DNA of 64,000 nt from Atopococcus tabaci (GTDB lineage Bacteria; Bacillota; Bacilli; Lactobacillales; Carnobacteriaceae_A), in NCBI GenBank assembly GCA_030535975.1, contig JAUNQW010000001.1:1-64000 (forward strand). The letters are read 5' to 3'. A program made the position numbers and the translations under genes. Position 1 is the first letter of the stretch. Every line of letters begins with the position of its first letter. The notes under the pieces were generated by a model that did no database searches, was not told where the DNA came from, and worked only from the letters and a program-made list of their open reading frames with translations. Positions 4,664 through 31,084 of this stretch are shown here, piece by piece.

Positions 4664-6109
4664 CTATTCTTGTGGCTGATTTTCTAAAATCCTCAATGTT
4701 TCTCTATATTGACTAGCTTCTGGCTCGTCAACGAATTGAACTGTATTATTAAACTTTTTATGAACCAAGTCTTTAATTTCATCTAAATTCACTTTGAAAA
4801 ATTCTTTTCTAGGGTTAACCTTGTTAATTTCATAGTCTCTAAAATGATTGTGCAACGTGTTCTCAAGAGCGGGTGCATCTTCACTAAAAATCATCGCATG
4901 AACATCGAACTCGAAAGGTACTGACGCACTAGCAAGTTCCTTGATCCTATCCATAGGCTCTAATCGCCTCGTCATTCCAATTTTATATATGTTCTCTCCG
5001 AAAGAGCCAATGTTGGAAATAATATAAACGAATCCAGCACGTGTATTTGCTTCGCGCTCAAGGACATTTTCTTTATCTTTTTCAAGAATTTTAATTTTTT
5101 CTTCGAGTTCTTTAATCTTTTCTGCATATATATTTCTTTCAATATCAGAATTTGATTTGCTCAGATAGTCTATCATTTTGTTTAATTCGTTATTAAATTG
5201 GCGCTCTTCTTTTTCTGTTTTTCTTTTTTCTTTCTGAAGTTCTCTTTCAACCTTTTGTTGTTCACGAACTTCTTCTTTTTGAGCTTTGAGTAATTCTTTT
5301 TCTGTTTCGATTTTCAGTTGATAGTTATAGGTGATTTCAAGTTGCTCTAATTTGAGTTCTAGTAGCTCTCTGCTAATTTGAACATTATCACTTTTGAATA
5401 AATTATTTAATATATCGTAAGACTTCACTATTTTCTTTCTATGACTATCGACATTTCTATATGTAACATTTGAAAGATAGTAGTCAGATTCTGTATTGAA
5501 TGTTCTTAAAAGTTGGTCTTGATGTTTCTTAGTAGATGTCTCGTCTTTAATAGGTATGATTGCTTTTTTGTTTTTTATTAATTCTTTCTCTGATACTTTA
5601 GCTAGTTCAAGTTGTGTTTTAAGTTCACTAGAAGTGATGTCTTCATCGAATTTAGGTGTTACTTTTATCATTTCATAGTCTTCTGCGTTAATATTAATAT
5701 ATATTTGGATTTCTTGCTTCTTTTGTTCTAGTTCCATTATTTGCTTGTTAACTTTTTCAATTTCGTTATTCATTTTATGCTCAGCATGTTTTTTTTCTTT
5801 CTCTATCTCTTCTTGGAGTCTTTGTTTCTCTTGGACTATTTCCTCATGATTTCTGTACTCATTAAAATATTTTCTTGAAACAATTCGATTCTTAAATACG
5901 AATATATATAAAAGAAACAAAAAACCAAAAATAATTGCACTCACCTGTTCAGTCAGAAGCCATATAACCCATATAATTGATAAACAACCTATCCTAGATT
6001 CTTTATCATTGCTTTCTTCTTTATCATTTTGTTTTTTCTTTTTGTTATTGTTTTCGAATATAACTCCTCCTAAATCTGAGCTAATTATTATTTTAAAATT
6101 CTTTTTCAA
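4664..6109 (-). CDS. Membrane-anchored DUF4041 coiled-coil protein with C-terminal GIY-YIG (T5orf172/MUG113) nuclease domain
   Basis: A 481-residue protein. A polar N-terminus (1-39) is followed by one or two hydrophobic segments (about 40-52 and 56-72), a Glu/Lys-rich coiled coil (about 78-135), a DUF4041-like region (about 140-270), a second coiled coil (270-365) and a GIY-YIG-type domain (about 367-465). The domain shows GFVYII for GIY, YKIGMTRR for YIG plus the catalytic Arg, and ALENTLHNHF with the conserved Glu, so it looks active. Proteins of this architecture occur in prophages and mobile regions; the function is not established. The gene is visibly richer in A+T than its neighbours and lies just past a tRNA operon. 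The start is uncertain: the longest frame begins at TTG (6109) without a ribosome binding site, while AGGAGG lies in front of in-frame ATA at 6061-6059. Confidence 0.8.
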   Translation of the reverse strand: MKKNFKIIISSDLGGVIFENNNKKKKQNDKEESNDKESRIGCLSIIWVIWLLTEQVSAIIFGFLFLLYIFVFKNRIVSRKYFNEYRNHEEIVQEKQRLQEEIEKEKKHAEHKMNNEIEKVNKQIMELEQKKQEIQIYININAEDYEMIKVTPKFDEDITSSELKTQLELAKVSEKELIKNKKAIIPIKDETSTKKHQDQLLRTFNTESDYYLSNVTYRNVDSHRKKIVKSYDILNNLFKSDNVQISRELLELKLEQLEITYNYQLKIETEKELLKAQKEEVREQQKVERELQKEKRKTEKEERQFNNELNKMIDYLSKSNSDIERNIYAEKIKELEEKIKILEKDKENVLEREANTRAGFVYIISNIGSFGENIYKIGMTRRLEPMDRIKELASASVPFEFDVHAMIFSEDAPALENTLHNHFRDYEINKVNPRKEFFKVNLDEIKDLVHKKFNNTVQFVDEPEASQYRETLRILENQPQE

Positions 6110-6192
6110 AAAATGTTTTACAGCAAAATTACTCTTGTTTTTATCAGCTGCTCATTGCTCTTATGACTGATAAAGTTTAGAGTATACATCTC

Positions 6193-6474
6193 TTAAAGTA
6201 TGCCCGTCACATAAAGTATGACTAGAATAAGCGCACCTAATATGATGATTAAGTAGATCAGTTGGAAGAAACAGTTTTTTCCAGAAAAAGGATCCATAGT
6301 TTCGTCTAATTCTTCATCTGTGAAGCCGCCTGTCCAGCTGTCACTGTCGCTTGTATCTTCCGGTGTCTGATCTTCTGTTTCCTGCGGTGGTTTTTTTACT
6401 GTTTCTTCTTTTTCATCAATGCTCTTTTTTCTATTTTGCAGAATATGCTGATTTCTTTTCTTTTTCTCCTTCAT
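6193..6474 (-). CDS. Small C-terminally anchored membrane protein, unknown function
   Basis: A 93-residue protein not recognised. Residues 1-23 are very basic, 24-67 are acidic and rich in Pro, Thr, Ser and Asp (disordered in appearance), and 69-92 form one hydrophobic helix ending the protein. With no signal peptide, this suggests a tail anchor with a cytosolic N-terminus. AGGGGG precedes the ATG at 6474. It is divergent from the YtxH-like gene, with about 110 bases between them. Whether it belongs to the same acquired block as the nuclease gene downstream is unknown. Confidence 0.65.
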   Translation of the reverse strand: MKEKKKRNQHILQNRKKSIDEKEETVKKPPQETEDQTPEDTSDSDSWTGGFTDEELDETMDPFSGKNCFFQLIYLIIILGALILVILYVTGIL

Positions 6475-6563
6475 TTTGTGTCCCCCTGTCCTTTTGACTA
6501 GTATAACTTAAATATTTAAGATTTGGGCTGGCATTAATTGGGACAAAGTAACTATATTCCATG

Positions 6564-6569
6564 TATAAT
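6564..6569 (+). promoter_or_regulatory. -10 box of the YtxH-like gene
   Basis: A perfect TATAAT with a weak GGGACA 18 bases upstream lies 24 bases before the chosen start. Confidence 0.45.
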
Positions 6570-6592
6570 GACTATTAAAAGAGGTGAGAGAT

Positions 6593-6868
6593 ATGTCATT
6601 TTTAGTAGGGACCCTGCTTGGAGCAGGTGGTGGATATGTGGCAGCTTTATTATTAGCTCCTCAAAAAGGCGCAGATACCCAAGAGGCTATTAAAAAACAA
6701 AAAGAAGAAATCAAATTCCAGGCCATGGATCAGTTGGAAAAAACTATGGCAGAAACGGAGGAGTTGCTGGAAAGTGTTGAAAGGTCTCTAAGATCAAAGC
6801 CAGATCAAGAAAGACAACGTGATGAGCAATTGAGAAAAGAGCATCTATTGATCAAAAAAGATAAATAA
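6593..6868 (+). CDS. YtxH domain protein (general-stress type)
   Basis: A 91-residue protein. One N-terminal hydrophobic helix (about 2-21) carries the glycine-rich pattern GTLLGAGGGYVAALLLAPQKG typical of YtxH proteins. A charged amphipathic coiled-coil tail follows. YtxH proteins are often stress induced; their biochemical role is not known. I chose ATG 6593 over GTG 6584 because GAGGTGAG (6581-6588) then sits as the ribosome binding site; with the GTG start it would be inside the gene. Confidence 0.75.
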   Translation: MSFLVGTLLGAGGGYVAALLLAPQKGADTQEAIKKQKEEIKFQAMDQLEKTMAETEELLESVERSLRSKPDQERQRDEQLRKEHLLIKKDK

Positions 6869-6900
6869 ACAATAAAAGTTGAAATAAAGATAAAAATCTA

Positions 6901-6928
6901 TTGTTTTTTCTAATAGATGTGCTATATT
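6901..6928 (+). promoter_or_regulatory. Promoter of the trmL leader
   Basis: TTGTTT and TATATT are separated by 16 bases, placing the transcript start near 6935. No other promoter is visible between here and trmL. Confidence 0.5.
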
Positions 6929-6934
6929 AATTAG

Positions 6935-7057
6935 GAAGGAACTTCTTTCATCTTTTTATCAATGCAGTTGGGAAAATTGATAAAGATTTTGAAGTAAGAC
7001 CTTACAGCGTATTTTCTCGCCGTGGTATACACCGAGGAAGTACGCTTTTTATTTTTA
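6935..7057 (+). ncRNA. Structured leader or small RNA ending in a terminator, before trmL
   Basis: The predicted transcript holds an 11-bp hairpin (6953-6963 with 6976-6986), possibly closed by ACTTC/GAAGT (6941-6945 with 6991-6995), a small GTAA/TTAC pairing, and a strong terminator stem of about 17 bp (7006-7024 with 7030-7046, two bulged C) followed by TTTTTATTTTT. The terminator ends 20 bases before trmL. This is the layout of a transcription attenuator, but I recognise no known riboswitch or T-box motif, and a free small RNA is equally possible. Confidence 0.5.
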
Positions 7058-7077
7058 AAAAAGAAAAAGGTGACTAT

Positions 7078-7587
7078 ATGACGAATCATATTGTTTTATT
7101 TGAACCGCAGATACCTCCGAATACTGGGAATATTGCCCGCACTTGTGCAGGAACAAACTCCAGCCTGCATTTAATTGAACCTCTGGGATTTCAGTTAGGT
7201 GACAAGCACTTGAGACGAGCAGGTCTGGATTACTGGGATGACCTGAATGTTTATATTCATGAAAGTTTAGATGCTTTTCTATCAACAATCGATCTTTCAG
7301 ATTTATTCCTGATCACTAAATTTGCTGAGAAGATATATACGGACCAGGATTTTTCAGATATTGATAAAGATTATTATTTAATGTTTGGTAAGGAAACGAC
7401 AGGTTTACCGGAAGAATTCATGAAAACATACGCCGACCGCTGCTTACGGCTGCCCATGAATGATGAGCATATTCGCTCTTTGAATTTGTCTAATAGTGCA
7501 GCAATTGTTATCTATGAACTGCTGCGCCAGCAAAATTTTGCTCAATTAGAACTCATGCATCACTATGAAAAAGATAAGCTGAAGTAA
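7078..7587 (+). CDS. trmL: tRNA (cytidine(34)-2'-O)-methyltransferase, SPOUT class
   Basis: A 169-residue SPOUT methyltransferase that 2'-O-methylates the wobble base of certain leucine tRNAs. N-terminal HIVLFEPQIPPNTGNIARTC is the family hallmark, FGKETTGLP (near 104-112) belongs to the trefoil-knot SAM site, and IRSLNLSNSAAIVIYE (near 136-151) completes the knot. AAAAGGTGA lies before the ATG. It is preceded by a structured leader with a strong terminator. A weak GAAG-CGA hairpin with a short T run (7597-7620) follows. Confidence 0.93.
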   Translation: MTNHIVLFEPQIPPNTGNIARTCAGTNSSLHLIEPLGFQLGDKHLRRAGLDYWDDLNVYIHESLDAFLSTIDLSDLFLITKFAEKIYTDQDFSDIDKDYYLMFGKETTGLPEEFMKTYADRCLRLPMNDEHIRSLNLSNSAAIVIYELLRQQNFAQLELMHHYEKDKLK

Positions 7588-27850: not shown

Positions 27851-27888
27851 ACAAAGTCAGGTGAATGCCTGACTTTGTTTTGTTTTTT
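27851..27888 (+). terminator. Terminator of clpX
   Basis: CAAAGTCAGG pairs with CCTGACTTTG around a GTGAATG loop, followed by TTTTGTTTTTT. Confidence 0.92.
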
Positions 27889-27939: not shown

Positions 27940-28524
27940 ATGAAGCAGATTCAAAAGGCAGAAATAGTGATGAGTGCTGTTAGTCAAAAGCAGTACCCTA
28001 AAGATCAATTACCGGAAATTGCCGTGGCCGGACGAAGTAATGTTGGAAAATCATCCTTCATCAATTCGTTACTCAGTCGCAAAGGGCTGGCACGAACTTC
28101 TTCTAAACCGGGGAAGACACGGACCATAAATTTCTTTTTGATTGATGAAAAATTTTATCTTGTGGACGTTCCAGGATATGGTTATGCAAAAGTTTCAAAA
28201 CAAGAAAGAAATAAATGGGGACAAATGATGGATGAATATTTTACCCAGCGTGAAAGCTTACAGCTAACTGTCTTATTAGTAGATGCTAGACACGATCCAT
28301 CAGAATTAGATATTCAGATGTATGAATTTTTGAAGCATTATGGTCTGCCTGTTCTTGTAGTTGCAACTAAATGTGACAAAATTAAACCTTCAAAAAGGCC
28401 GAGACATTTAAAAGCTGTCAAGGAAGGATTAAACCTGGAACCTGGAGATGAAGTTGTTTTATATTCTTCTGAGAAATTAGATGGCAGAAATGAAGTTTGG
28501 AAATATGTTAACGACCATCTTTAG
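27940..28524 (+). CDS. engB: Ribosome biogenesis GTPase (EngB/YsxC)
   Basis: A 194-residue essential GTPase in 50S subunit assembly. G1 is [10 protein letters not shown] (near 30-39), G2 involves [13 protein letters not shown]3 is DVPGYG, and G4 is TKCDKI. GAGGAG lies six bases before the ATG and a TATAAT is about 30 bases further up. It is followed by the hemA-like gene, as ysxC lies near hemA in Bacillus. Confidence 0.96.
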
Positions 28525-28558
28525 ACAAAGTTATAGCTTTAATTATAAGGGGTAACCA

Positions 28559-29650
28559 ATGAAATTACTATTGTATGGTGCTGATCAAAACTCAATCAGT
28601 CAGGATGATATCCACAGATATATATTGAGTGATGAAGAAGCCAAAAAACAATTAAATGATCTAAAAAGCTTGGATGGTGTAGATGAACTTATTATTTATA
28701 ATAATGAGTGGTTTACCGAGTATTATTTTTTAGTGGATGAAACACTTTTCCAGCATGGAGACTTTTTAACCTATCTTTCTAACTCTACGGAAAAAGAAAT
28801 TGATGAGGTTATTCTGGACACTTACAGTAAATTCAATGCTGACTTAATCACTCATCTCCTCACCGTTCTTGTGGGTATAGATTTTGAGATGAATAGTGTG
28901 GCATTCCTTGCAGATGCTGAGAAAGCTGTAGTGGAGAGTGGAGAAGAGCTGGAAAACACTTTCTTAAATCAGTTGTTTATACAAGCTGTCCAGTTTATCA
29001 GTGAATTACGTACTCTGCCGGAGTTGCATGACATGTTTCAATCCCGAACTGATCTTACCCTGCAACATATTTTAACCTGCTTTAGACACTTGATTTTTAA
29101 TCGTTTTTATATCGCTGGCAGTGAAGAATATATTGTAGCTTTGGGCAAAATGCTCTATCGTAATGGGGCCCAGCATATCACTTTATCGTCTACTGATAAG
29201 GCAAGAGATGCAGATATCATTCAATCTCTCAATGATTGGGCTGAGAGTCTTTCCAGTAAGCCGCTGAAGAAAAATTTTTATACCCCTATTACTAAAAATG
29301 CTCAACTGTATTATTTATCTTCAGCCGACGGGATCATCATCGAGCAGATTACTGAAGAACCTGGCAGCAAAGAGGAATGGTTTTATGATCAGCTTAATCA
29401 GCTGCTCAAAGAAATTGAAACGATCAGACATAATAAGAAGAAACAGTGTCTTTTTATCTTAAATGAAGAGAATAATGAATTTTCTTGTGACGATATGGAG
29501 CAGAAAATTTATAATATTACTCCGGATACCGAAGTTTCCTTATCCATTGAAACTCAGGTAGAAGTCGCCAAAGACTACTTTGAGCGTCAAGCAGAGTTGG
29601 AGACAGAAAAATTATACACCAGTTACAAAATTTACTCCAAAGAGATGTAA
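28559..29650 (+). CDS. Glutamyl-tRNA reductase-like protein (HemA homologue) without catalytic residues
   Basis: A 363-residue protein. The N-terminal 60 residues follow the GluTR pattern without gaps: MKLLLYGAD, LDGVDELIIYNNEWFTEYY and LVDE align with the family's ...E-x-I-I-V-S-T-C-N-R-T-E-I-Y...V-D. The catalytic Cys (50 in Bacillus HemA) is Glu50, and C-N-R reads E-W-F. FLNQLFIQAVQ (135-145) matches the conserved F-N-x-L-F-x-Q-A-V. The nucleotide-binding segment (182-212), RFYIAGSEEYIVALGKMLYR, has lost the Gly-x-Gly-x-x-Gly loop. The C-terminal dimerisation domain is short. The position after engB is the hemA position in Bacilli, but no other heme gene is here. The intact frame and good ribosome binding site suggest a kept, non-catalytic function. 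Confidence 0.8.
   Translation: MKLLLYGADQNSISQDDIHRYILSDEEAKKQLNDLKSLDGVDELIIYNNEWFTEYYFLVDETLFQHGDFLTYLSNSTEKEIDEVILDTYSKFNADLITHLLTVLVGIDFEMNSVAFLADAEKAVVESGEELENTFLNQLFIQAVQFISELRTLPELHDMFQSRTDLTLQHILTCFRHLIFNRFYIAGSEEYIVALGKMLYRNGAQHITLSSTDKARDADIIQSLNDWAESLSSKPLKKNFYTPITKNAQLYYLSSADGIIIEQITEEPGSKEEWFYDQLNQLLKEIETIRHNKKKQCLFILNEENNEFSCDDMEQKIYNITPDTEVSLSIETQVEVAKDYFERQAELETEKLYTSYKIYSKEM

Positions 29651-29788: not shown

Positions 29789-31084
<1,296 letters not shown>

Follow-up and report, generated by a model that had tools for sequence, protein, structure and literature searches.

Why should lactic-acid bacteria without a recognizable heme pathway keep a gene resembling hemA directly behind engB? 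The window analysed here, a stretch of 64,000 nucleotides from Atopococcus tabaci (contig JAUNQW010000001.1), carries such a gene, which an earlier note made from the sequence alone had read as a paralogue of glutamyl-tRNA reductase (GluTR, HemA) kept as a non-catalytic protein after the loss of heme synthesis. The intact frame with a normal start described there is present as stated. It opens with an ATG at position 28559, preceded by a Shine-Dalgarno-like AAGGGG at 28547–28552, and runs for 363 codons with zero internal stops (Table 1).

Table 1. Features of the HemA-like locus, numbered from the first nucleotide of the window.
Feature	Positions	Strand	Basis
GluTR-derived, probably non-catalytic protein (HemA-like pseudoenzyme), 363 aa	28559..29650	+	homology, profiles, fold
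N-terminal module, residues 1–105	28559..28873	+	58% mean identity among relatives; dN/dS 0.03–0.06
Residues 49–54, N-E-W-F-T-E, equivalent to GluTR T-C-N-R-T-E	28703..28720	+	alignment
Former catalytic Cys codon (residue 50), now GAG	28706–28708	+	alignment
Residues 182–191, FYIAGSEEYI, degraded former NADPH-binding GxGxM loop	29102..29131	+	
Residues 331–362, remnant of spinal helix; expected GlutR_dimer after it absent	29549..29644	+	
engB/ysxC, ribosome-assembly GTPase, directly upstream	27940..28524	+	
Terminator-like hairpin 3′ of clpX	27851..27878	+	consensus match only
obgE, conserved downstream neighbour	29789..31084	+	

Taken by itself, the window protein offers merely suggestive signs of GluTR homology. 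The Pfam GlutR_N model (PF05201) matches residues 11–108 at 18.2 bits (E = 0.0022), which is under the curated cut-off of 27 bits, and the NCBIfam GluTR model gives 17 bits against a cut-off of 429 bits. Used as the only query, the protein retrieves no relative among the genome contigs or plasmids, and a family alignment is needed. The homology is secure because of the relatives, rather than because of this protein alone. When 27 genomes belonging to this family were searched at the protein level, one orthologue was recovered in each of 25, all intact and spanning eight genera, with Alkalibacterium, Marinilactibacillus, Atopostipes, Lacticigenium and Alloiococcus among the named carriers. The GlutR_N profile search that had been proposed as a check matches all 25 orthologues, 22 of them above the cut-off; the NCBIfam model likewise matches 25 of 25, and the Shikimate_DH (Rossmann) model matches 14. 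When the family profile is compared with the PDB, it finds the GluTRs of M. kandleri (E = 5e-15) and Arabidopsis (E = 2e-13). The alignment with canonical HemA is free of gaps across roughly 110 residues, well beyond the 60 first claimed, and the segment FLNQLFIQAVQ (residues 135–145), previously likened to a conserved GluTR stretch, aligns with the GluTR LxxLFxxAxxF motif. Descent of the frame from GluTR/HemA is thus confirmed. The label of paralogue does not hold, because GlutR_N matches no other protein in this genome, leaving a single copy, and the synteny is conserved; the gene is the lineage's own hemA orthologue.

The predicted structure agrees with this assignment. An AlphaFold model of the window protein (pLDDT 83.6 and pTM 0.84, weaker in the loop at residues 304–329) returns GluTR chains as its top seven Foldseek matches, with E values down to 3e-13. 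VIA-align yields a Z score of 21.7 against 4n7r (320 residues aligned) and 17.6 against 1gpj (306 aligned, reaching chain residue 329 of about 400), whereas the next fold scores well below these at 13.2. The comparison with solved GluTRs that the earlier note had called for therefore gives a match along the whole length of the model, with domains 1 and 2 showing the overall fold of GluTR. The overall rmsd values are high (7.7–12.8), which would fit a changed angle between the domains. The model terminates within the spinal helix, and the dimerisation domain is therefore missing.

The arrangement of neighbouring genes supports the idea of an ancestral hemA slot behind engB, since engB lies upstream and obgE downstream in 21 of 21 flanked loci as well as in the window. 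Two genomes (G002 and G015) have no HemA-like gene, but both lack engB as well, and a contig end falls at obgE, so that the site is unassembled rather than demonstrably lost. At 20 of 22 loci the HemA-like start and the engB stop overlap, by 4 bp in 19 of them and by 1 bp in the other. Gaps of 34 bp and 44 bp occur instead in the window and in Lacticigenium, respectively; the distance to obgE in the window is 138 bp. The 4-bp overlap suggests translational coupling with EngB, and its frequency makes co-expression with engB likely. With a terminator-like hairpin after clpX, engB is probably cotranscribed with the HemA-like gene in the window. Beyond the family, a class-wide search of 399 genomes returned, among the matches listed, only frames of canonical length (about 440–590 aa) save one at a contig end. 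Weak GlutR_N matches were set aside as chance in Alloiococcus (C3 and C8, phage-type amidases), in G093 and G190 (adjoining RNase III and SMC genes) and in G219.

The proposed loss of heme synthesis is borne out across the family. Among its 27 genomes, we found no HemB, no second GlutR_N protein above the cut-off and no HemL above the cut-off of 527 bits. HemL-like matches in 11 of these genomes reach 120–176 bits, far below that threshold, and in all likelihood belong to different class-III aminotransferases. Because completeness of the window genome is 85%, pathway loss is read from the family rather than from this genome alone.

Retention of functional residues was scored in the 25 family members relative to 19 canonical HemAs of the same order. 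Attack of a Cys residue on Glu-tRNA is the established first catalytic step of GluTR (Cys48 in M. kandleri; PMC3778395). This residue, at position 50 here, is kept in one of 25 proteins and is otherwise Asp (11), Glu (10), Ser (2) or Asn (1), which makes GluTR activity of the HemA-like protein very unlikely. The window protein has Glu50 in place of the catalytic Cys and E-W-F in place of C-N-R, as had been read from its letters, and the Gly-rich NADPH loop reported as gone indeed reads GSEEY where GAGxM is expected. Losses elsewhere in the protein recur throughout the family. Of three N-terminal residues that hardly vary in canonical HemA, P14 and R18 survive in none of the 25 and E19 in one; the GLDS..GExQ substrate loop retains S109 in four, E114 in two and Q116 in one; the second Gly of the NADPH GxG motif survives in two; and the dimerisation domain (PF00745), present in Isobaculum HemA, matches no family member. 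Seven residues (G7, E43, E54, D60, H99, F140 and D257) are kept in all 25. R52 is found in 22, being Phe in the window protein and also lost in L026, and Thr or Ser occupies position 49 in 19, with positions 49, 51 and 53 variable. The protein with Cys at position 50 (L023, genome G013; SECQRLEYY) has lost the surrounding motif.

Purifying selection on this gene is evident in the substitution rates. In four close pairs, dN/dS (YN00) is 0.085–0.124, compared with 0.008–0.052 for neighbouring genes where computable, and frameshifts are absent from the relatives. Thus, none of the three outcomes named beforehand as speaking against the earlier note (no structural match to GluTR, a normal hemA pathway in the genome, or neutral rates with frameshifts) was observed. 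Estimates by NG86 are 0.034–0.060 for residues 1–105 and 0.047–0.127 for the remainder, with one dS near saturation. Mean identity in the family is 58% over residues 1–105 and 26–27% elsewhere, and the family alignment contains 20 invariant columns; the corresponding identities for a related Cys-containing HemA (family f2, described below) are 67%, 65%, 47% and 43% over four segments. The N-terminal module is therefore the main target of selection, and the constraint on it is close to that in the Cys-containing HemA. That the chemistry is destroyed but the front part strongly preserved suggests that this dead HemA has a different present job.

An intermediate stage is preserved in Isobaculum and its relatives. 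The genome tool places Alkalibacterium in family f1 and Isobaculum in family f2; NCBI taxonomy assigns both to Carnobacteriaceae. In f2 (loci L080, L083–L087 and L094–L096, Isobaculum melis included), engB is followed by a Cys-containing HemA with an intact TCNRTEYY motif and then by HemL. The engB–hemA gap is about 110–130 bp in two f2 loci that were read and holds three other genes in Isobaculum, and because these gaps are wider, the 4-bp overlap is probably a later tightening. HemB was not found in f2, and HemC is absent from seven of eight genomes tested. The presence of HemA and HemL without HemB represents an apparent aminolevulinate-only route, and f2 HemA may make only 5-aminolevulinate. 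A comparable state, hemA without hemB, hemC, hemD and hemE, has been tabulated for two Carnobacterium species (PMC6857183). One f2 genome, G116 (L085), with HemA and HemL and no HemB, encodes a lone HemC (porphobilinogen deaminase) above the cut-off on contig C5 (298636–299268).

Seventeen residues, all within residues 2–93, are common to the dead proteins and f2 HemA and are absent or rare in other HemAs, whereas the reverse pattern of sharing is not seen at any position. Three class-level HemA N-termini agree that the 17 shared states are derived; such residues survive only under strong selection, and their restriction to 2–93 in part reflects divergence elsewhere. Both groups also share an insertion in the Rossmann-type domain, which occupies up to 13 columns of the alignment (235–247). 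Furthermore, Listeriaceae-type and cobalamin-type HemAs split from f2 plus the dead-HemA family with support of 100/99 in a tree that, owing to five long branches, is unreliable for the order inside the family and was not used for it. The shared residues, insertion, tree and synteny together show that the dead HemA arose by vertical descent in place at the engB–obgE site, where the gene has persisted over a very long period, and f2 HemA is an intermediate stage toward it.

We consider it probable that the lineage's original hemA was kept in place as a pseudoenzyme through stepwise change, with its N-terminal module acting by binding. The protein combines homology to an enzyme, loss of its catalytic residues and selection on the protein. 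If this model is correct, a full ancestral heme pathway of the Listeriaceae type was the first stage, HemA and HemL only, as in the Isobaculum family, the second, and dead HemA alone the last. The N-terminal module, in which some of the ancestral pocket persists across the family (E54, H99 and, in most members, R52), would now serve as a small regulator or adaptor that acts by binding, and the NADPH-type domain would serve as structural support only. Binding may have arisen before catalysis was lost, because the shared N-terminal residues are already fixed in the Cys-containing f2 HemA. EngB or a 50S target would be the first candidate partner, given the usual 4-bp overlap with engB and thus by operon position only, although this overlap may simply reflect ancestral order in a compact operon. 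Several observations fit less easily. The binding role is read from conservation, the window protein is fast-evolving (branch 1.84) and has lost R52 too, L023 still has its Cys, and the 17 residues in common may be no more than ordinary lineage changes in the core of the domain, as opposed to a functional surface. A further and doubtful extension, which we offer tentatively, is that the HemA N-terminal domain gained a second, catalysis-independent role, tied to EngB and ribosome assembly, in a 5-aminolevulinate-making ancestor of these Lactobacillales; this would explain why hemA survived the loss of the whole heme pathway and, later, of its active site.

Other readings of the same residues fare less well. 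The protein could still be an enzyme, with a new NADPH- and thioester-free site formed by Asp or Glu50, Glu54, His99 and usually Arg52. The acidic residue at position 50 in 21 of 25 members, together with the invariance of E54 and H99 and the near-constancy of R52, would suit such a site, but we regard it as unlikely given the eroded substrate loop, the variation at residues 49, 51 and 53, and the lack of R52 in the window protein and L026. The guess that the protein binds tRNA-Glu is weakened because both the dimerisation domain (missing in 25 of 25) and the N-terminal P-x3-RE motif (P14, R18 and E19) are gone. Although the ancestor recognised Glu-tRNA and the pocket is partly kept (T/S49, R52, E54 and H99), a non-catalytic binder of tRNA-Glu or Glu-tRNA, such as a glutamyl-tRNA sensor or chaperone, therefore seems quite unlikely; tRNA binding would be less likely than an EngB or 50S partner. 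A functionless relic in slow decay would account for evolution faster than that of the neighbours (dN/dS of about 0.1 versus 0.01–0.05) and for the poorly conserved C-terminal two thirds, yet it is highly improbable for a frame that is intact in 25 genomes of eight genera, has 20 invariant columns and gives pairwise dN/dS values that are all far below 1, falling to 0.03–0.06 over residues 1–105. Chance or fold-level resemblance, for which the sub-threshold Pfam score of the window protein alone might speak, is refuted by the family-wide matches, the recovery of both GluTR structures in the profile search, the full-length fold match and the hemA position.

Pseudoenzymes keep the fold of an enzyme, have lost its catalytic residues and act by binding. 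Reading the dead HemA as a pseudoenzyme accords with this general pattern, as nucleophile and cofactor site are lost while fold and selection are retained. We know of no GluTR-derived bacterial pseudoenzyme, and the open-access papers searched describe neither such an example nor the HemA-like protein itself. The protein resembles GluTR/HemA (GlutR_N, Shikimate_DH and GlutR_dimer) in its N-terminal fold, Rossmann-type domain, gap-free alignment of about 110 residues and place after engB, but lacks the catalytic Cys (24 of 25), the GLDS..GExQ loop, the NADPH Gly motif, the dimerisation domain and the downstream pathway. With the HemA of Isobaculum melis and its relatives in the same order it shares the engB–hemA order, the 17 derived residues (within 1–93) and the Rossmann-type insertion; unlike the dead protein, f2 HemA has Cys50, about 455–480 aa, the dimerisation domain and an adjoining hemL, with no hemB.

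Full pathway, HemA and HemL only, and dead HemA only thus form a natural series, the last two stages of which occupy one fixed chromosomal site, and the series clearly shows how an enzyme can persist once the pathway around it has disappeared. For annotation it carries a warning, as matches to GluTR models could be miscounted as a sign that heme or aminolevulinate is made in bacteria lacking such synthesis. Discovery of a partner would reveal a second function for the GluTR N-terminal domain, possibly also where HemA works.

Elsewhere in the same order, HemB accompanies canonical HemA in family f7, which appears to be Listeriaceae-like, and in families f4, f5 and f8 with HemA in cobalamin clusters, but not in f2. 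Three f2 loci (L084, L085 and L096) have phage-tail-like and lysin-like genes directly upstream of engB, where others have clpX. In f4, f5 and f8 (L088–L092), canonical HemA lies in cobalamin-type clusters rather than behind engB, and in one of these (L090; G261, 5264–7504) it is contained within a 746-aa frame, an apparent fusion with the next enzyme.
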